Part shown: piece after piece, positions 25,395 through 32,508 of the stretch | How positions within the stretch are numbered: position 1 is the stretch's first letter | Layout: each line of letters begins with the position of its first letter | Position numbers and translations under genes: made by a program | Source: Pilimelia terevasa | GTDB lineage: Bacteria; Actinomycetota; Actinomycetes; Mycobacteriales; Micromonosporaceae | Length of the DNA stretch: 64,000 nucleotides | Direction of reading: 5' to 3' | NCBI RefSeq assembly: GCF_014647915.1 | Contig: NZ_BMQC01000002.1 | Coordinates: forward strand, 310,001 to 374,000 | Notes under the pieces: model-generated | Seen by the model: the letters and a program-made list of their open reading frames with translations, nothing else | Databases searched by the model: none | What the model was told of the DNA's origin: nothing

Positions 25395-25499
25395 ATGCGA
25401 GTGCTGTTGTCGACCCGCGCGCTGTTGGCGACCCGCGGGGGCGCGGGTGAGGGCGGCCCGGGGCGCCGGGACACGGCCGCCGCGGCGGTGCCGCGATGA
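25395..25499 (+). CDS. Short upstream ORF overlapping the rph start (putative leader peptide)
   Basis: A 34-codon frame from ATG 25395 (MRVLLSTRALLATRGGAGEG...) whose TGA stop overlaps the rph start codon as ATGA. rph itself has no visible Shine-Dalgarno sequence, so ribosomes finishing this frame could reinitiate on rph. Third codon positions are nearly all G or C, as in coding DNA here. A GGGGG run lies about 8 nt upstream. The first residues resemble the N-terminus of GT1 glycosyltransferases (MRVLLST), so it might alternatively be a remnant. A second overlapping short frame begins at 25382. Expression is inference. Confidence 0.5.
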   Translation: MRVLLSTRALLATRGGAGEGGPGRRDTAAAAVPR

Positions 25500-28093
25500 C
25501 GGAGCGGGACGTGCGGGACCTTCGGGAGACCGACGAGACGCAGGGCGCGGTCGTCGGCGGCAAGGGCGCCCACCTGGGCGGCCTGTCGCGGGTCGACGGC
25601 GTCCGCGTACCGGCCGGCTTCTGCGTGACGACGGACGCCTTCCGGCGGGTCCTCGCGGGGGCACCGGCGGTCGGCGGCCAGCTCGACCGGCTGTCGCACC
25701 TGAAGCCGGACGACCGGGACGGGGTCCGCGCGCTCAGCGCGGACATCCGGCGGACCGTCGAAGCGGCCGCCGTCCCGGTCGACCTGGCGGCGGCGGTCAG
25801 CCGCGCGCTCGCCCGGCTCGGCGACCGGGTCGCCTGCGCCGTCCGGTCCAGCGCGACGGCGGAGGACCTGCCGACCGCGTCCTTCGCCGGCCAGCAGGAC
25901 ACCTACCTGAACGTCGTGGGCCCGGAGGCGGTCCTGCGGCACGTCAGCCGGTGCTGGGCGTCGCTGTTCACCGAGCGGGCCGTGACCTACCGCCAGCGCC
26001 GGGGCATCGACCACCGCGCGGTCCACATGGCCGTCGTCGTGCAGCGGATGGTCTTCGCGGACGCGGCCGGCGTCCTGTTCACCGCCGACCCCGTCACCTC
26101 CCACCGGCGGATCGCCTCCGTGGAGGCCAGCTTCGGCCTCGGCGAGGCGCTGGTCTCCGGCCGGGTGGACACGGACGTCTACCGGGTGCGCGACGACGCG
26201 GTCATCGCCAGGACGATCGCCACCAAGCGGGTCGCGGTGTACGCCGCGCCGGCCGGCGGTACGCGGGAGCAGGAGATCGACCCCCAGCAGCAGGACCGGC
26301 CGGCGCTGACCGATGCGCAGGTCGTGCGCCTCGTGCGGCTCGGTCGGCGGATCGAGGCGCACTTCGGCCGCCCCCAGGACATCGAATGGTGCCTGGTCGG
26401 CGACGACTTCCAGATCGTCCAGAGCCGGCCGATCACCACGCTGTTCCCGGTCCCCGACTCCGGCGACCGGGAGAACCGCGTCTACCTCTCCGTCGGCCAC
26501 CAGCAGATGATGACCGATCCCCTTAAGCCCCTGGGGCTGTCCTTCTGGCAGATGACGACGCCTGTACCCATGGCCGAGGCCGGCGGCCGCCTGTTCGTCG
26601 ACGTCACCCGGCGGCTGGCCACGCCGTCCGGCCGTGCCGGGCTCCTGGAACTGATCGGGCGGTCCGATCCGCTGACCGGGGACGCGCTGCGGACCATTCT
26701 GGCGCGCGACGACTTCATCCGACCGCTCCCGGACGAGGGTCCGCCCGGGCCGCTGGTCGCCGGCCCGCCGGCCCCGATCGAGACCGATCCGGGCGTGGTC
26801 ACCGAGCTGGTCCGGTCCAGCGAGGCCTCCGTGGCCGCCGCCGCGCGCGACATCGGGGCCGCGTCGGGAGAGGCGCTGCTCGACCTCATCCGGGCCGACA
26901 TCCAGGAGCTGCGCCGAATCTTGTTCGATCCGCGCAGCCACCAGGTGTTCCTGTCCGCGATGGAGGCCACGTGGTGGCTCAACGAGCGGCTGGAGGCGTG
27001 GCTGGGCGAGCGGAACGCGGCCGACACGCTCACCCGGTCCGTCCCGCACAACGTCACCTCGGAGATGGGGTTGGCGCTGCTGGATGTGGCCGACGCGATC
27101 CGCCCGCACCCGGACGTGGTGGCGTTCCTGGAGCGCGTCCGGGACGACGACTTCCTGGACGAACTGCCCCGGCTGGCGGGCGGGCCGCAGGCGCGGGACG
27201 CCATCGCGGCCTGGCTCGACCGGTACGGTATGCGCTGCGTGGGCGAGATCGACATCTCGCGGCCGCGGTGGAGCGAACGCCCCTCCACGCTGGTGCCCAC
27301 GATCCTCGGCAACGTCCGGAACTTCGCGGCCGGCGAGGGTGCGCGGCGGTTCGCGCAGGGGCAGCGGGAGGCGGCGGAGAAGGAGCGGGAGCTTCTGGGG
27401 CGCCTGCGGGCCCTGCCGGACGGGGAGCACAAGGCCGGCGAGGCCAAGCAGCGGATCGACCGGGTGCGGACCTTCATGGGGTACCGGGAGTACCCGAAGT
27501 ACGGCATGGTCTGCCGCTACTACGTGTACAAGCAGGCGCTGCGGAGAGAAGCCGAGCGCCTCGTGCGGGCCGGTGCCCTCCGCGCGGTGGAGGACATCTA
27601 CTACCTGACGTTCCAGGAGCTTCACGACGCCGTGCGCACGAGCCGCGCCGACCACCGGCTCATCGACCGGCGCCGGGCCGAGTTCAGGTCGTACCGGGCA
27701 CTCACGCCGCCCCGGGTGCTCACCTCGGACGGCGAGGCCGTCGCCGGGGCGTACCGGCGCGACGACGTGCCGGCCGGCGCGCTGACCGGCCTGGCGGTCT
27801 CCGCCGGGACCGTGCAGGGGCGGGCCCGCGTCGTCTCGGACATGGGGCGGGCCGACCTGGAACCCGGCGACATCCTCGTCACGGCGCACACGGACCCCAG
27901 TTGGACGCCCCTGTTCGTCGCCGCCGCGGGGTTGGTGACGGAGGTCGGGGGAGCGATGACCCACGGCGCGGTGATCGCCCGGGAGTACGGCCTGCCCGCC
28001 GTCGTCGGGGTGGCGGACGCCACCCGGCAGATCCGCGACGGGCAGCGGATCCGCGTCCACGGAACCGACGGCTACATCGAGATCCTGCCCTGA
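25496..28093 (+). CDS. rph: Rifamycin-inactivating phosphotransferase
   Basis: An 865-residue dikinase that transfers the beta-phosphate of ATP to the C21 hydroxyl of rifamycins, giving resistance. The N-terminal ATP-grasp domain has VVGGKGAHLGGLSR, CAVRSSATAEDLPTASFAGQ and FQIVQSRPITTLFP. A rifampin-binding helical domain spans about 325-755. The C-terminal swivelling His domain has GGAMTHGAVIAREYGLPAVV with the phospho-carrier His near residue 823. The length and order match Rph from Listeria and actinomycetes and differ from PEP synthase, which has a PEP-binding domain after the His domain. A RAE motif upstream supports rifamycin-dependent control. ATG 25496 overlaps the stop of a short leader frame by 4 nt. 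Confidence 0.95.
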   Translation: MTERDVRDLRETDETQGAVVGGKGAHLGGLSRVDGVRVPAGFCVTTDAFRRVLAGAPAVGGQLDRLSHLKPDDRDGVRALSADIRRTVEAAAVPVDLAAAVSRALARLGDRVACAVRSSATAEDLPTASFAGQQDTYLNVVGPEAVLRHVSRCWASLFTERAVTYRQRRGIDHRAVHMAVVVQRMVFADAAGVLFTADPVTSHRRIASVEASFGLGEALVSGRVDTDVYRVRDDAVIARTIATKRVAVYAAPAGGTREQEIDPQQQDRPALTDAQVVRLVRLGRRIEAHFGRPQDIEWCLVGDDFQIVQSRPITTLFPVPDSGDRENRVYLSVGHQQMMTDPLKPLGLSFWQMTTPVPMAEAGGRLFVDVTRRLATPSGRAGLLELIGRSDPLTGDALRTILARDDFIRPLPDEGPPGPLVAGPPAPIETDPGVVTELVRSSEASVAAAARDIGAASGEALLDLIRADIQELRRILFDPRSHQVFLSAMEATWWLNERLEAWLGERNAADTLTRSVPHNVTSEMGLALLDVADAIRPHPDVVAFLERVRDDDFLDELPRLAGGPQARDAIAAWLDRYGMRCVGEIDISRPRWSERPSTLVPTILGNVRNFAAGEGARRFAQGQREAAEKERELLGRLRALPDGEHKAGEAKQRIDRVRTFMGYREYPKYGMVCRYYVYKQALRREAERLVRAGALRAVEDIYYLTFQELHDAVRTSRADHRLIDRRRAEFRSYRALTPPRVLTSDGEAVAGAYRRDDVPAGALTGLAVSAGTVQGRARVVSDMGRADLEPGDILVTAHTDPSWTPLFVAAAGLVTEVGGAMTHGAVIAREYGLPAVVGVADATRQIRDGQRIRVHGTDGYIEILP

Positions 28094-28381: not shown

Positions 28382-28456
28382 TGGTGCCCCCGGCAGGATT
28401 CGAACCTGCGCCCCCGCCTCCGGAGGGCGGTGCTCTATCCCCTGAGCTACGGGGGC
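28382..28456 (-). tRNA. tRNA-Arg (anticodon CCG)
   Basis: A 75-nt tRNA with encoded CCA. The acceptor stem GCCCCCG pairs with CGGGGGC, discriminator A. The D arm contains TAGCTCAGGGGATAGAGC. The anticodon loop CTCCGGA gives CCG, which reads CGG codons. The T arm holds the invariant GGTTCGAATCC. It has its own -10 box upstream (28471-28476) and an intrinsic terminator downstream, so it is a monocistronic unit. CGG is among the most used Arg codons in this genome. Confidence 0.97.
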
Positions 28457-28552: not shown

Positions 28553-28828
28553 TCACTCCGCCCCGGCCTGCTCCTCGGCCCGTTCGTCGTCGGTCTCGAC
28601 GCGTGCGTCGGTCCGTGTCCCGGCGACCGGTACCGCGGCGGTCTCCCGCCCGCGACGCAGTGCCGCCATCAGCCCGAGCAGTCCGAACAGGGCCACGCCG
28701 CCCGCGACGAACCAGCCCGCCGCCGGCAGCCGCACGTCGAGCTGGCGCCCGAGCGTCCACCAGGCGGCGCCGGCCAGGAAGAAGAGTGCGAAGACCAGGG
28801 ACAGGGCGTCGGTGCGGTGGGACCTCAT
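28553..28828 (-). CDS. Small two-helix membrane protein of the PspC module
   Basis: A 91-residue protein with two membrane helices (LSLVFALFFLAGAAWWTLG, about 9-27, and AAGWFVAGGVALFGLLGLMA, about 36-55) and a charged cytoplasmic tail rich in Glu, Asp and Arg. No named domain. The ATG at 28828 overlaps the upstream PspC gene stop by 4 nt (ATGA), so the two are translated coupled and the protein probably joins the same membrane complex. Its tail could contact a cytoplasmic partner. Function unknown. Confidence 0.85.
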   Translation of the reverse strand: MRSHRTDALSLVFALFFLAGAAWWTLGRQLDVRLPAAGWFVAGGVALFGLLGLMAALRRGRETAAVPVAGTRTDARVETDDERAEEQAGAE

Positions 28829-30276
28829 CGGACTACCTCCAGGTTGCCGGCGCGGGCGGTGAGCGTCAGGTGCAGGGTGCCGGTACCCGGACCCGTCGTG
28901 GCCGGGTACGTCTGGTCGGCGGGCGCCGAGTCCCAGTCGCCCTGCTGGACGTCGCCCAGGATCGAGATCCGGCCGGCCTGGACCTGGCTCGTCGTGCGCA
29001 GGATCACCGTCGTGGGTACCAGGATGCGCATCACCCCGAACTTGACGGTCGCCTCGACGGGGGTCTGGCGGCCGGCAAAGTTGATCTGACGCAGGTCCAG
29101 GGTCGCGTCGCCGAAGCGGTGTTCGTAGCGGGGGGACAGGGTGGCGACGCTCTGCGGCGTCCACGTGACCGGCTCCGGCTCGACGTGGCTGGCGCCCGCG
29201 ATGCCGCCGAGGGCGACGCTCAGGAGCAGGCCGAGCGGGATGAGCAACCGGGCCCGCCCGAACCAGGTACCGACGAGCAGGCCGAGTCCGACCACGCCGA
29301 GCGCGGTGGCCACGTAGGTGCCGCCGGTGATCCGGCCGGCGCCGGTCAGGTCGGCGACGCCGACGCCCGCGAGGGCCAGCAGCATGAGCGAGAAGGTGAT
29401 CAGCCCGAGTGCGGACCGCTCGCGGCGCGGCTTCGGCGGGGCGGGCGGCGCGGGGGCCGGCGGCGCCGGGGGGCCACCCCAGGGGCCGTGCGGCGCGAAC
29501 GGCGGTCCGTACGGCGGGGCCGGCGGCGACGGGTACCCCGCCGCGGGGGCGGGCGGCGCGTAGGCGGGGGGTGCCGCGCTCCACACCGGACCGGCCGGGG
29601 CCGGCGCGGCGGCGGCCGCGCGGACGGGGCCGAAGAAGGACGGCGCCGTACCGGGGGCGAAGCCGAGGCGACTCAGCCCGGTCCGGCCGGTGCCGCGGTT
29701 GGCCAGCAGGGCGATGCCCAGGACCACGGCGACGCCGAGGACGAGGGCGCCGCCGCCGTTGCCCATGGTGACGCCGACGGCGATGAAGGCGCCGACGGCC
29801 ACCGCCACGGTCACGCCCGCGGGGGTACTGGACTCGCCGCGGTCGATCAGGGCGTCGACCGGCGAGCCGGTGTCGCCCTCGGCGGGCGAGACGAGCCACA
29901 GGACGAGGTACACGGCGATGCCGACGCCGAACAGTCCGAGGACCGCCAGCAGGACCCGCCAGAGCACCGGGTCCGTCCGGGTGGTCCGGGCGATCCCCGC
30001 GCACACCCCGGCCAGGTACCGGCCCTGGACCGGCCGGACGAGTCCGTGCCGGAACAGCGGCCCCGGCCGGGTCGGCCCGCCGTACGCCGCGCCGGGCGGC
30101 GGCACCTGCGACCCCTCGGGCGGTACCTGCGACCCGTCGGGCGGCATCTGCGACCCGTCGGGCGGTACCTGCGACCCGTCGGGCGGCGCCGGCGAGTCGT
30201 CGGCCGGCGGCGGGGCGGTCCGCGGTGTGCCGGGCGGTGGGGGCGGGCTGGGCCGGTCGGCCGGGTTCTCATCCAT
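28825..30276 (-). CDS. PspC-domain membrane protein with LiaF-like C-terminal domain
   Basis: A 483-residue envelope-stress protein. A Pro-rich N-terminus contains seven-residue repeats (PPDGSQV type). A PspC domain follows (YLAGVCAGIARTTRTDPVLW, then LLAVLGLFGVGIAVYLVLW). Several further membrane helices are separated by a Pro/Ala/Tyr linker. The C-terminal beta-helical part (ATLSPRYEHRFGDATLDLRQ; FGVMRILVPTTVILRT) resembles the cell-wall-active-antibiotic response domain of LiaF/YvqF, which inhibits the cognate kinase. ATG 30276 is used. It is divergent from a kinase that carries its own PspC domain, so the likely role is to set that kinase's activity; this is inference from LiaFSR systems. 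Confidence 0.9.
   Translation of the reverse strand: MDENPADRPSPPPPPGTPRTAPPPADDSPAPPDGSQVPPDGSQMPPDGSQVPPEGSQVPPPGAAYGGPTRPGPLFRHGLVRPVQGRYLAGVCAGIARTTRTDPVLWRVLLAVLGLFGVGIAVYLVLWLVSPAEGDTGSPVDALIDRGESSTPAGVTVAVAVGAFIAVGVTMGNGGGALVLGVAVVLGIALLANRGTGRTGLSRLGFAPGTAPSFFGPVRAAAAAPAPAGPVWSAAPPAYAPPAPAAGYPSPPAPPYGPPFAPHGPWGGPPAPPAPAPPAPPKPRRERSALGLITFSLMLLALAGVGVADLTGAGRITGGTYVATALGVVGLGLLVGTWFGRARLLIPLGLLLSVALGGIAGASHVEPEPVTWTPQSVATLSPRYEHRFGDATLDLRQINFAGRQTPVEATVKFGVMRILVPTTVILRTTSQVQAGRISILGDVQQGDWDSAPADQTYPATTGPGTGTLHLTLTARAGNLEVVR
30098..30181. repeat. Four tandem 21-bp repeats inside the PspC gene
   Basis: Four contiguous 21-bp units (30098-30118, 30119-30139, 30140-30160, 30161-30181) that differ at only a few bases. 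They encode four copies of a PPDGSQV-type heptapeptide in the N-terminal tail. The period is a multiple of three, so copy-number change keeps the frame. Confidence 0.85.
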
Positions 30277-30322
30277 GACCACGATCCTCGCGGCCGGCGG
30301 CCCCGCGCACCTCCGGTACCGA

Positions 30323-30340
30323 CCCTGAGTAAACCCTGAG
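30323..30340. promoter_or_regulatory. Direct repeat CCCTGAG x2, one helical turn apart, in a divergent promoter
   Basis: ACCCTGAG occurs at 30322-30329 and 30333-30340, an 11-bp period, placing both on one face of DNA. It lies about 50 nt from the PspC start and about 110 nt from the kinase start. A likely binding site for the LuxR-type regulator of this locus; no footprint evidence. Confidence 0.55.
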
Positions 30341-30448
30341 GTCCGGCGGCCGGGGAGGTCAGGGTCGTCCCGGAGGGCGCGCGCCGCCGCGCGTGCGACG
30401 ATCGGTGGACGACACCGGCGACCGCGGGGAGGGGGCGTCATCGACACC

Positions 30449-31849
30449 GTGTGGGAAGCGCCGGCTCCGCTGGTCCGGCGGCGGCAGGGGCGGCTGGTCG
30501 CGGGGGTGGCCGACGGGATCGCCGCGCACCTGGGGCTGTCGCGGACGGCGGTCCGGGCGGCCTTCGCGGTGCTGCTGGTCTTCGGCGGCGTGGGCCTGAT
30601 CCTGTACGCCGCGTTCTGGGCCGTCCTGCCGCAGCGGGCCGACGACGGCGCGGTCGGGGACCCGCCGTCGCTGCTGCGGCTCGTCCCCTTCCTGGTGATC
30701 GGGGCGCTGGTCGTCGGCGCGCAGCTCGCCACCGACTCACCGGGGCTGAACTTCGTCGTGGCCGTCCTGGTCGCGGGCGTGGCGGGCGGCGCCGGGGTCA
30801 TCTGGCACCAGTCCGACCGGGAGCAGCGGCGGCGCTGGCGGGAGACCGTCCCGGGGATGCCGTGGCTGGGCGTCGTGGTGCAGGACGCCGACCGCCGGCT
30901 CGTCGTGCTGCGGTTCGTCGGCGGGGCGGTGCTGGTCGCCGCCGGGCTGATCGGCGTGGTGGCGGTGTACGCGCCGGTCGGGCGCTTCGACGTGCTGACC
31001 GTGCTCGGCGGGGTGGTGTTCGCCCTCGTCGGCGTGGCCGGGGTGGCGCTCGTGGCCGCGCCGGTGCTGTGGCGGGTCTTCGCCGAGTTGCGTACCGAGC
31101 AGGCCGCCCGGATCCGGGAGCAGGAGCGCGCGGAGTTCGCGGCCGTCGTCCACGACCAGGTGCTGCACACGCTCGCGCTGATCCTGCGCAACGCCGACGA
31201 CCCGGCGACGGTCCGCCGGCTGGCCAGGGGCCAGGAGCGGACGCTGCGCGGCTGGCTGTACCGGCCGGCCGGCGCGCCGGGGGAGCGGTTCGCGGCGGCG
31301 GTGGAGGCGCTGGCCGCCGAGGTGGAGGACACGTACGGTATTGCCGTGGAGCCGGTGGTGGTCGGCGACGCCGCCGTCGACGAGCAGGTCGGCGCGCTGG
31401 TGGCCGCGGCCCGGGAGGCGCTGGTCAACGCGGCCCGGCACGCCGGGGTGCCCACCGTGTCGCTGTACGCGGAGGTGGAGCCGGACCAGGTGAGCGTGTT
31501 CGTCCGGGACCGGGGGGCCGGGTTCGACCCGGCGGCGGTGCCGGCGGACCGGCACGGCGTGCAGGGTTCGATCGTCGGCCGGATGCGCCGGCACGGCGGT
31601 ACCGCGCAGATCCGCACCGCGCCGGGCGAGGGCACGGAGGTCCGCCTCCACCTACCGCGCCGGCCCGGCCGGCCCGAGGCGCGGTCCGACGAGCAGCCAG
31701 AGGCGCGGTCCGACGAGCGGCCTGACCCGAGGCCCGGCGAGCGGTCCGGCAAGCAGACCGACGAGCGGCCTGGCGCGCGGACCGACGAGCGGACCCGCGG
31801 GCGGACCGGGCAGCCGGCCGGGCGGGCGGACGAAGGGGAGGGGCCGTGA
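30449..31849 (+). CDS. PspC-fused sensor histidine kinase (LiaS/DesK-like)
   Basis: A 466-residue membrane kinase. The N-terminal PspC domain (VRRRQGRLVAGVADGIAAHL, then the VLLVFGGVGLILYAAFWAVL helix) is followed by about five further membrane helices to about 210. The HisKA_3 dimerisation domain has EFAAVVHDQVLHTLALIL with His235. A short ATPase domain has REALVNAARHAGV (N box), FVRDRGAGFDP and GSIVGRMRRHGGTAQI. The last about 65 residues are repetitive, charged and probably disordered. GTG 30449 follows a GGGGAGGGGG run. The stop overlaps the regulator start by 4 nt. It likely senses membrane or cell-wall stress together with the divergent PspC/LiaF-like protein. Confidence 0.93.
   Translation: MWEAPAPLVRRRQGRLVAGVADGIAAHLGLSRTAVRAAFAVLLVFGGVGLILYAAFWAVLPQRADDGAVGDPPSLLRLVPFLVIGALVVGAQLATDSPGLNFVVAVLVAGVAGGAGVIWHQSDREQRRRWRETVPGMPWLGVVVQDADRRLVVLRFVGGAVLVAAGLIGVVAVYAPVGRFDVLTVLGGVVFALVGVAGVALVAAPVLWRVFAELRTEQAARIREQERAEFAAVVHDQVLHTLALILRNADDPATVRRLARGQERTLRGWLYRPAGAPGERFAAAVEALAAEVEDTYGIAVEPVVVGDAAVDEQVGALVAAAREALVNAARHAGVPTVSLYAEVEPDQVSVFVRDRGAGFDPAAVPADRHGVQGSIVGRMRRHGGTAQIRTAPGEGTEVRLHLPRRPGRPEARSDEQPEARSDERPDPRPGERSGKQTDERPGARTDERTRGRTGQPAGRADEGEGP
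31673..31720. repeat. Two tandem 24-bp repeats in the kinase tail
   Basis: Two adjacent 24-bp units (31673-31696 and 31697-31720) encode PEARSDEQ and PEARSDER. Degenerate copies (Asp/Glu/Arg/Pro/Gly) continue to about 31840. The result is a hydrophilic tail with no structured motif. Confidence 0.75.
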
Positions 31850-32508
31850 CGACGACGCGACCCGCGGGCCTGCTGCGGGTGTTCCTGGTCGACGACCATG
31901 CGATGTTCCGGGCCGGCGTCTGCGCCGAGCTGGCCGGCCGCGTCGAGGTCGTCGGGCAGGCCGGGACCGTGGCCGAGGCGGTCGCCCGGATCGGGCAGCT
32001 CGCGCCGGACGTGGTCCTGCTGGACGTGCACCTGCCCGACGGCGGCGGCCGGGCGGTCCTCCAGGCGCTGCACGCCGGGCTGCCGGCGGTGCGCTTCCTC
32101 GCGCTGTCGGTGTCGGACGCCGCCGAGGACGTGATCGGGGTGATCCGGGCCGGCGCCCGCGGGTACGTCACGAAGTCGATCTCCGGCGACGAACTGGTCG
32201 AGGCGATCGGCCGGGTCGCCGACGGCGACGCCGTGTTCAGCCCGCGGCTGGCCGGGTTCGTCCTCGACGCGTTCGCCGGCAACCCCGACCCGGCCACGAC
32301 GACCGACCCGGAGCTGGACCGGCTCACCAACCGCGAACGCGAGGTGCTGCGCCTGCTGGCCCGCGGGTACGCCTACAAGGAGATCGCCCGGGAGTTGTAC
32401 ATCTCGGTCAAGACGGTCGAGACGCACGTGTCCAGCGTGCTGCGCAAACTCCAGGTCTCCAACCGGCACGAGCTGACCCGGTGGGCGGCCGACCGCCGCC
32501 TGATCTGA
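31846..32508 (+). CDS. NarL/LuxR-family response regulator of the PspC module
   Basis: A 220-residue regulator. Its receiver domain has FLVDDHAMFRAGVCAEL with the acidic residues, the phosphoacceptor Asp60 in VVLLDVHLPDGGG, and Lys in ARGYVTKSISGDEL. The LuxR-type helix-turn-helix has LTNREREVLRLLARGYAYKE and SVKTVETHVSSVLRKLQVSN. GTG 31846 overlaps the kinase stop by 4 nt. It is of the LiaR/VraR type and probably binds the direct repeat in the divergent promoter at 30323-30340, thereby controlling both its own operon and the PspC gene. It ends 42 nt from a convergent DUF305 gene. Confidence 0.93.
   Translation: MTTTRPAGLLRVFLVDDHAMFRAGVCAELAGRVEVVGQAGTVAEAVARIGQLAPDVVLLDVHLPDGGGRAVLQALHAGLPAVRFLALSVSDAAEDVIGVIRAGARGYVTKSISGDELVEAIGRVADGDAVFSPRLAGFVLDAFAGNPDPATTTDPELDRLTNREREVLRLLARGYAYKEIARELYISVKTVETHVSSVLRKLQVSNRHELTRWAADRRLI

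Follow-up and report, generated by a model that had tools for sequence, protein, structure and literature searches.

A small hairpin protein and a regulatory-type operator at an EsrISR-type PspC locus of Pilimelia terevasa

A divergent four-gene locus of Pilimelia terevasa (Micromonosporaceae) was analyzed within a stretch of 64,000 nucleotides (nt) of its genome (NCBI RefSeq assembly GCF_014647915.1, contig NZ_BMQC01000002.1, positions 310,001 to 374,000; hereafter the window, with positions counted from its first letter). This locus is probably a cell-envelope stress system of the EsrISR type with a fourth member, a small two-helix membrane protein, and its response regulator would drive the operon of the inhibitor candidate and the small protein as a negative feedback. 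The EsrISR-type core is not new, because EsrISR is already known from Corynebacterium glutamicum and has been described across Actinobacteria. What goes beyond the published accounts of EsrISR, in the portions of them available, is the conserved fourth protein, the larger operator and the fixed layout of operator and start codon.

Organization and conservation of the locus

A preliminary description of this DNA had placed a small protein and a PspC membrane protein opposite a PspC kinase and a regulator, and open reading frames (ORFs) and Pfam matches confirm the four genes at those positions. On the reverse strand, the PspC membrane protein (28,825-30,276), an EsrI-like inhibitor candidate by its Pfam PspC domain, AlphaFold model and match to the structure 4QRK, is followed by the ORF of a 91-residue membrane protein with a LiaI/LiaF-type hairpin (28,553-28,828), the proposed fourth component. 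On the forward strand lie an EsrS-like histidine kinase (30,449-31,849), which by Pfam and its model consists of a PspC domain, four membrane helices, His235, a HATPase_c domain (42.3 bits) and a repetitive tail, and an EsrR-like response regulator of the NarL/LuxR type (31,846-32,508; Pfam Response_reg, 64.4 bits, and GerE, 73 bits). Within each pair the genes overlap by 4 nt, the PspC gene's stop with the small gene and the kinase gene's end with the regulator gene. The inhibitor candidate runs from a proline-rich N-terminus through PspC, membrane helices, a proline-rich linker and LiaF-type helices to Toastrack, the C-terminal domain of LiaF.

The PspC domain that had been read in both the kinase and the divergent membrane protein is clear in each (61.2 and 59.7 bits; cut-off 25), and H235 and D236 of the kinase are invariant across 32 aligned kinases. 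The LiaF-like C-terminal domain, likewise proposed earlier, stays below the Pfam cut-off in the window's sequence alone (25.1 bits; cut-off 29) and gains support from a profile of 39 sequences, which matched 4QRK at E 1.3e-7, and from a Foldseek match of the predicted structure to 4QRK (E 3.6e-5, probability 1.00, with a TM-score of just 0.31 by target length). In the available part of PMC11237479, 4QRK is named as an example of Toastrack. The small protein consists of two hydrophobic helices and had no match in NCBIfam up to E 1 or in Pfam above any cut-off; an assignment as a holin was rejected, its best Pfam match (E 0.042) being below the cut-off. A scan of the four proteins and of two neighboring genes gave no match to the PspA family.

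Loci for comparison were picked solely by their kinase. Together with the window, the 165 fetched loci make 166, or 164 distinct ones once L201 and L224, duplicates of L174 and L177, are set aside. Mycobacteriales are over-represented because Corynebacterium-type kinases served as queries for 80 of the loci, the top 80 out of 332 relatives, which do not include C. glutamicum. The Corynebacterium-type loci number 30, of which 23 are named Corynebacterium and seven (L160-L166) belong to genus g256, taken as Corynebacterium; a PspC ORF is present in 29 of them, and in L186 and L195 the contig breaks off within or close to that gene. In operator counts the window's group, here called the f1 group, consists of 29 loci (28 of family f1 and L057 of f5); f1 is taken to be Micromonosporaceae.

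The kinase found a match at E 0.001 in all 61 genomes of a closer set, made up of the own genome (4.5 Mb) and 60 relatives, many of these matches covering the kinase half alone; near full-length matches starting at residue 9 or earlier, hence including PspC, were counted by eye in 47. Phylum-wide, 70 of 296 genomes, the own one included, gave a match at 1e-25, some of them partial, and in family f8 the kinase was matched at 1e-30 in 133 of 151 genomes. Within that family, all nine sampled genomes of genus g44, which are 5-6 Mb in size and perhaps Mycobacterium, were without the kinase at the same threshold. The window's kinase is 38-41% identical to four named Corynebacterium kinases. The regulator was found on the kinase strand in 161 of the 165 fetched loci, no more than 600 nt away in 160, and was unmatched in L162, L163, L180 and L193; a divergent PspC ORF occurs in 162 of the 166 loci, the window included, and is missing in L066, L144, L204 and L226.

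The small protein as a conserved fourth component

The two-helix protein, previously listed as a fourth component without assignment, proved to be co-conserved, its gene following the PspC gene immediately in 107 of the 164 distinct loci. This count used a profile grown from 30 seeds, whose match had to start -20 to 160 nt from the stop of the PspC gene: 113 of 166 loci were matched and 109 satisfied the distance rule, excluding L144 (match on the other strand, no divergent PspC found), L202 (match inside the PspC gene), and L037 and L148 (656 and 1270 nt beyond the chosen ORF). At 13 further loci a two-helix ORF without a profile match occupies the same place, including three of the four loci of f18, which we infer to be Streptomyces. 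None of the 29 Corynebacterium-type loci with a PspC ORF has the small protein, and in 27 of these at least 300 nt of sequence extend beyond that ORF. Many homologues carry a motif like M-K/R-x-H-x-x-D-x-x-S-L before the first helix. With this distribution it counts as a conserved fourth member of the EsrISR-type locus.

Profile comparisons with hhalign, for which all 113 matches supplied the small-protein profiles, indicate where its closest kin may lie. The small family aligned to the LiaF-type hairpin of the PspC protein with a probability of 93.6% (44.6% for the reversed small profile) and to the whole PspC protein with 88.3% (reversed controls 19.6 and 22.5). The hairpin of the PspC protein in turn matched the second hairpin of the kinase (90.9%; reversed controls 3.0 and 2.4); the first helix pairs of the two proteins scored 66.8, below the control of 76.5. 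Among 12 small homologues searched with Pfam, LiaI-LiaF-like_TM1 was matched in four (best E 0.035) and LiaF-TM in two (best E 0.0022), all weakly. The window's own small protein matches neither model, and the membrane part of the PspC protein has no direct match to the LiaF-TM model, so that its likeness to LiaF-TM runs through the weakly matching small family. Taken together, the inhibitor candidate and the kinase appear to share a LiaF-type hairpin in addition to PspC, and it is the inhibitor's hairpin that the small protein resembles.

The hairpin and the small protein also tend to occur together. With L202, L037 and L148 counted as positive, a small ORF is present in 116 of the 118 loci outside the Corynebacterium type whose PspC protein has the hairpin. 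In the Corynebacterium-type loci neither the inhibitor hairpin (0/29) nor a small ORF (0/29) was detected, and Toastrack was (26/29).

The operator and its position

The preliminary description had noted CCCTGAG repeated at one helical turn in the intergenic region. This repeat forms part of an operator at 30,310-30,340 on the forward strand, in which an inverted half, TCCGG (30,312-30,316), faces ACCCTGAG (30,322-30,329) and a direct repeat of ACCCTGAG follows (30,333-30,340). The arrangement ACCCTGAG-TAA-ACCCTGAG (30,322-30,340) puts the second CCTGA 11 nt after the CCTGA of 30,324-30,328. The sequence ACCCTGAGNNNACCCTGAG has one exact match in the window and one more with 3 mismatches, and ACCCTGANNNNACCCTGA occurs exactly once in the own genome, at this divergon. 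Of the 61 genomes, 33 contain ACCCTGANNNNACCCTGA, with 39 exact sites in all, of which 31 lie at this divergon; the reversed pattern has two. The operator and hexamer patterns used here were chosen post hoc, from the sequences themselves.

CCTGA repeated at a spacing of 11 nt was found in 25 of the 29 loci of the f1 group; the other spacings from 8 to 13 nt were absent there and 14 nt occurred once. Relaxed to CCTGR, the 11-nt repeat is present in 26/29 loci of the f1 group, 22/105 other loci and 0/30 of the Corynebacterium type, and a 12-nt spacing also occurs in 13/105 other loci. The inverted site TC[ACG]GG-N5-7-CCTG[AG] is shared more widely: on the kinase strand it is present in 134 of the 164 loci (26/29 in the f1 group, 85/105 in the others, 23/30 in the Corynebacterium type), compared with shuffle means of 0.6, 1.6 and 0.5, or about 3 in total, and on either strand in 26/29, 91/105 and 27/30. 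The direct repeat therefore looks like an elaboration, strongest in the f1 group, of this wider inverted site. A chance origin of the repeat was rejected on the exact genome-wide counts relative to the reversed pattern and on the inverted-site counts relative to shuffles.

The inverted site keeps a nearly fixed distance to the PspC gene. Of the 134 loci, 123 have an in-frame ATG or GTG of that gene at a distance of 35-39 nt (36 or 37 nt in 115), namely 26/26 of the f1 group, 74/85 of the others and 23/23 of the Corynebacterium type. Each of these 123 also has a hexamer xAxxxT whose end is 5-9 nt ahead of the start (6 or 7 nt in 122); shuffling the same 20-nt stretches 200 times gave 18.7 such loci on average and at most 29. 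In the window this -10-like hexamer is GAGGAT (30,284-30,289, reverse strand), 7 nt ahead of the PspC/small-protein operon's start codon. From this layout we infer a leaderless promoter with the activator site in place of the -35 element.

A mirrored copy of the site, 35-38 nt ahead of an in-frame start of the kinase gene, occurs in 25/30 Corynebacterium-type loci, 41/105 others and 2/29 loci of the f1 group, and a symmetric divergent operator was accordingly rejected for the f1 group. Since the mirrored site is rare in this group and the operator is placed at the start of the PspC gene, the window's operator apparently belongs to the PspC/small operon. The earlier reading of the repeat as an element of a divergent promoter thus holds as to a regulatory-type site and becomes more precise as to its placement, which in this family is in the promoter of one operon and not symmetric. 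Both the repeat in orthologous divergent regions and the co-conservation of the genes were looked for and seen, and on these points the preliminary description stands. For the kinase gene, GACGAT (30,397-30,402, forward strand) is a possible -10 element, by likeness to relatives and read by eye without statistics.

Comparison with known systems

Kleine and colleagues reportedly described EsrISR in C. glutamicum in 2017 and noted similar loci in many actinobacteria; esrI is presumably divergent in that species. To our knowledge, Corynebacterium is the only worked example of such PspC kinases. As far as the available portions of PMC9239133, PMC6975037, PMC10963414 and PMC3353115 describe it, EsrISR of C. 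glutamicum (cg0706-cg0708; the kinase is also called CgtS7) has the same PspC kinase, regulator and PspC membrane protein; a kinase domain is present, according to the available part of PMC9239133, in over half of the actinobacterial PspC proteins longer than 300 residues. The window shares with EsrISR a kinase with N-terminal PspC, an adjoining NarL/LuxR regulator and a divergent PspC protein, and with Corynebacterium kinship of the kinase sequence and the operator in the divergent region. EsrISR is also marked by inhibition of the kinase through the divergent protein, by induction with antibiotics of the lipid II cycle and by a regulon beyond the locus. The Corynebacterium-type loci, which do not include C. 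glutamicum, are like the window in Toastrack, in the operator words and in their spacing to the start codon, whereas they differ in lacking the small protein (0/27) and the inhibitor hairpin and in having the mirrored operator before the kinase start.

Another close description is that of a Lia-like, PspA-free system of Actinobacteria (AIJ13865/AIJ13866) in PMC11237479. In the available part of that paper, the kinase likewise combines PspC with LiaF-LiaI-TM, the regulator is of the REC-HTH type, and a divergent PspC gene with transmembrane segments and sometimes Toastrack shares the promoter region; that part mentions neither a small partner nor an operator, and it places Toastrack inside the cell, where helix parity in the window's protein would suggest outside. 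A literature search for an EsrR binding motif found no paper, and neither the small partner nor the operator was reported in the available portions of the papers listed on PspC with LiaI and Toastrack in Actinobacteria and on actinobacterial and Streptomyces PspC kinases, though an operator of C. glutamicum may have been published; in papers on Streptomyces antibiotic responses, a term search did not find 'PspC' in the main text. Membership in MacRS or MadR was rejected on scores below the NCBIfam cut-offs: for MacRS (NF047322), residues 101-403 of the kinase, a match that excludes PspC, reached 88.8 bits (cut-off 300).

The genes liaF, liaS and liaR of Bacillus subtilis run in one direction. 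The likeness of the window to LiaFSR, drawn in the preliminary description, extends to a Toastrack part, a putative LiaF-like membrane part, a two-component pair and a small LiaI-like membrane protein. It does not extend to the arrangement, which is already known as EsrISR: the genes are divergent in the window, kinase and inhibitor candidate have the common PspC module that the preliminary description had noted, and PspA/LiaH was unmatched at the locus.

A proposed switch and its alternatives

In unstressed cells, the PspC/Toastrack protein and the small hairpin protein would jointly restrain the PspC kinase by way of their matching membrane parts; the preliminary description had placed the switch in hetero-oligomerization through PspC, a possible mechanism. 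Damage to the envelope would free the kinase, and the phosphorylated regulator would then bind the inverted CCTGA site, which occupies the -35 position 36 nt ahead of the PspC/small operon's start codon, and activate this leaderless operon. The additional inhibitor and small protein could then shut the kinase down again, closing a homeostatic loop. More tentatively, and short of what we would call probable, the ancestral actinobacterial EsrISR may have been a four-part switch. The small protein in it would duplicate the LiaF-type hairpin of the inhibitor as a separate protein and, paired with the inhibitor or else with the matching kinase hairpin, tune how strong the inhibition is. Corynebacterium would have lost the small protein, and in much of the phylum the regulator site would have stayed 36-37 nt from the leaderless start.

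The same small protein could instead be a LiaI-like membrane effector that is produced under stress and shares only its transcript with the inhibitor. The weak matches of its homologues to LiaI-LiaF-like_TM1 (4/12) and LiaF-TM (2/12) would fit this, as would the presence of the small membrane protein LiaI in the lia operon of B. subtilis, given in the available part of PMC11237479. However, the best profile match of the small protein is the inhibitor's own hairpin, hairpin and small protein are jointly missing in the Corynebacterium-type loci, and the PspA family was unmatched in the four proteins of the locus; we therefore consider an effector rather unlikely. The best match and the joint absence point to the small protein as a partner of the inhibitor. 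Such a partner might also act in the opposite sense, a detached copy of the hairpin competing for the kinase and letting the system switch on. The inhibitor hairpin does resemble both the kinase hairpin (90.9%) and the small protein (93.6%), and the small family matched the first hairpin of the kinase at 61.5 (13.4 reversed). Yet it scored 5.8 with the second hairpin, below its reversed control of 43.9, and 11.9 with the whole kinase (controls 12.4 and 10.7), and an operon shared with the inhibitor is better suited to a co-inhibitor, which makes an opposing role improbable. That the repeat belongs to another regulator and lies at this locus incidentally is very improbable indeed, given that 31 of the 39 exact sites are found here and that the position of the site is kept at loci chosen solely by their kinase.

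Several observations weigh against the feedback switch or its reach. Nine of the 15 non-Corynebacterium loci without a detected hairpin still carry a small ORF, the loci used to train the hairpin profile possess the small protein, and the joint absence in Corynebacterium may represent a single evolutionary event, making it weak evidence for a working pair. Eight of the 39 exact sites lie off the locus, with no common target by eye, and the inverted site is found on neither strand in 20 of the 164 loci. In the own genome, the sole exact match of the tandem-site search is this locus, whereas the Esr regulon of C. glutamicum, in the available portions of PMC6975037 and PMC9960051, takes in several genes outside the locus. 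Allowing up to 2 mismatches, ACCCTGANNNNACCCTGA has 23 places in the own genome against 4 for the reversed pattern; of the 22 inexact sites, 14 are inside ORFs as called by a crude caller and 8 outside. Further targets are therefore possible, as the inexact sites exceed the reversed control and some lie outside ORFs.

If the fourth protein does belong to the switch, the Corynebacterium model would be incomplete for most of the relatives examined. The operator with its fixed spacing would offer a ready reporter site and a handle on PspA-free PspC signaling.

Membrane topology and linker

The predicted models have a mean pLDDT of 71.7 for the kinase and 75.4 for the PspC protein, low in the first membrane half of the kinase, and resolve PspC as short helices, after which come four long ones in the kinase and five in the PspC protein. 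The kinase domain necessarily lies inside the cell. If PspC crosses the membrane an even number of times, the helix count of the models suggests that Toastrack of the PspC protein would end outside. In its available part, PMC11237479 takes PspC as two helices and argues for an intracellular Toastrack. A pair of cysteines in Toastrack, present in 65 of 110 homologues and in none of the 27 aligned f1-group proteins, the window's included, would fit an outside location.

The proline-rich linker of the PspC proteins has a recurrent motif, W-D-P-L...A-P-F-A-W-D-L-P, which may be a docking site. WDPL is present in 21/29 Corynebacterium-type, 55/104 other and 0/29 f1-group PspC proteins; by eye, some of the latter, including the window's, have PPFAPHGP in the linker. 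A 21-nt tandem repeat unit in 5.3 copies (30,098-30,208) lies within the coding sequence for the proline-rich N-terminus of the PspC protein, and the coding sequence of the kinase tail (31,670-31,831) is built of tandem repeat units of 12, 24 and 48 nt.

Other PspC genes and neighboring features

Three PspC matches were found in the own genome, two in the divergon and one on another contig, the last without an operator site of this kind in the 300 nt before its domain. In three f1 relatives (L260, L261 and L262), TCAGGG words lie upstream of a PspC gene that stands alone some 7 kb from the divergon, and L262 has two of these words at a distance of 11 nt, so a regulon beyond the locus is possible; the inverted-site pattern was unmatched in all three. 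The window's locus is adjoined by a gene for a rifamycin-inactivating phosphotransferase (25,496-28,093, forward strand; NCBIfam NF041857, 1528 bits, cut-off 999), and a tRNA-Arg (CCG) gene lies at 28,382-28,456 on the reverse strand, just downstream of the small gene.

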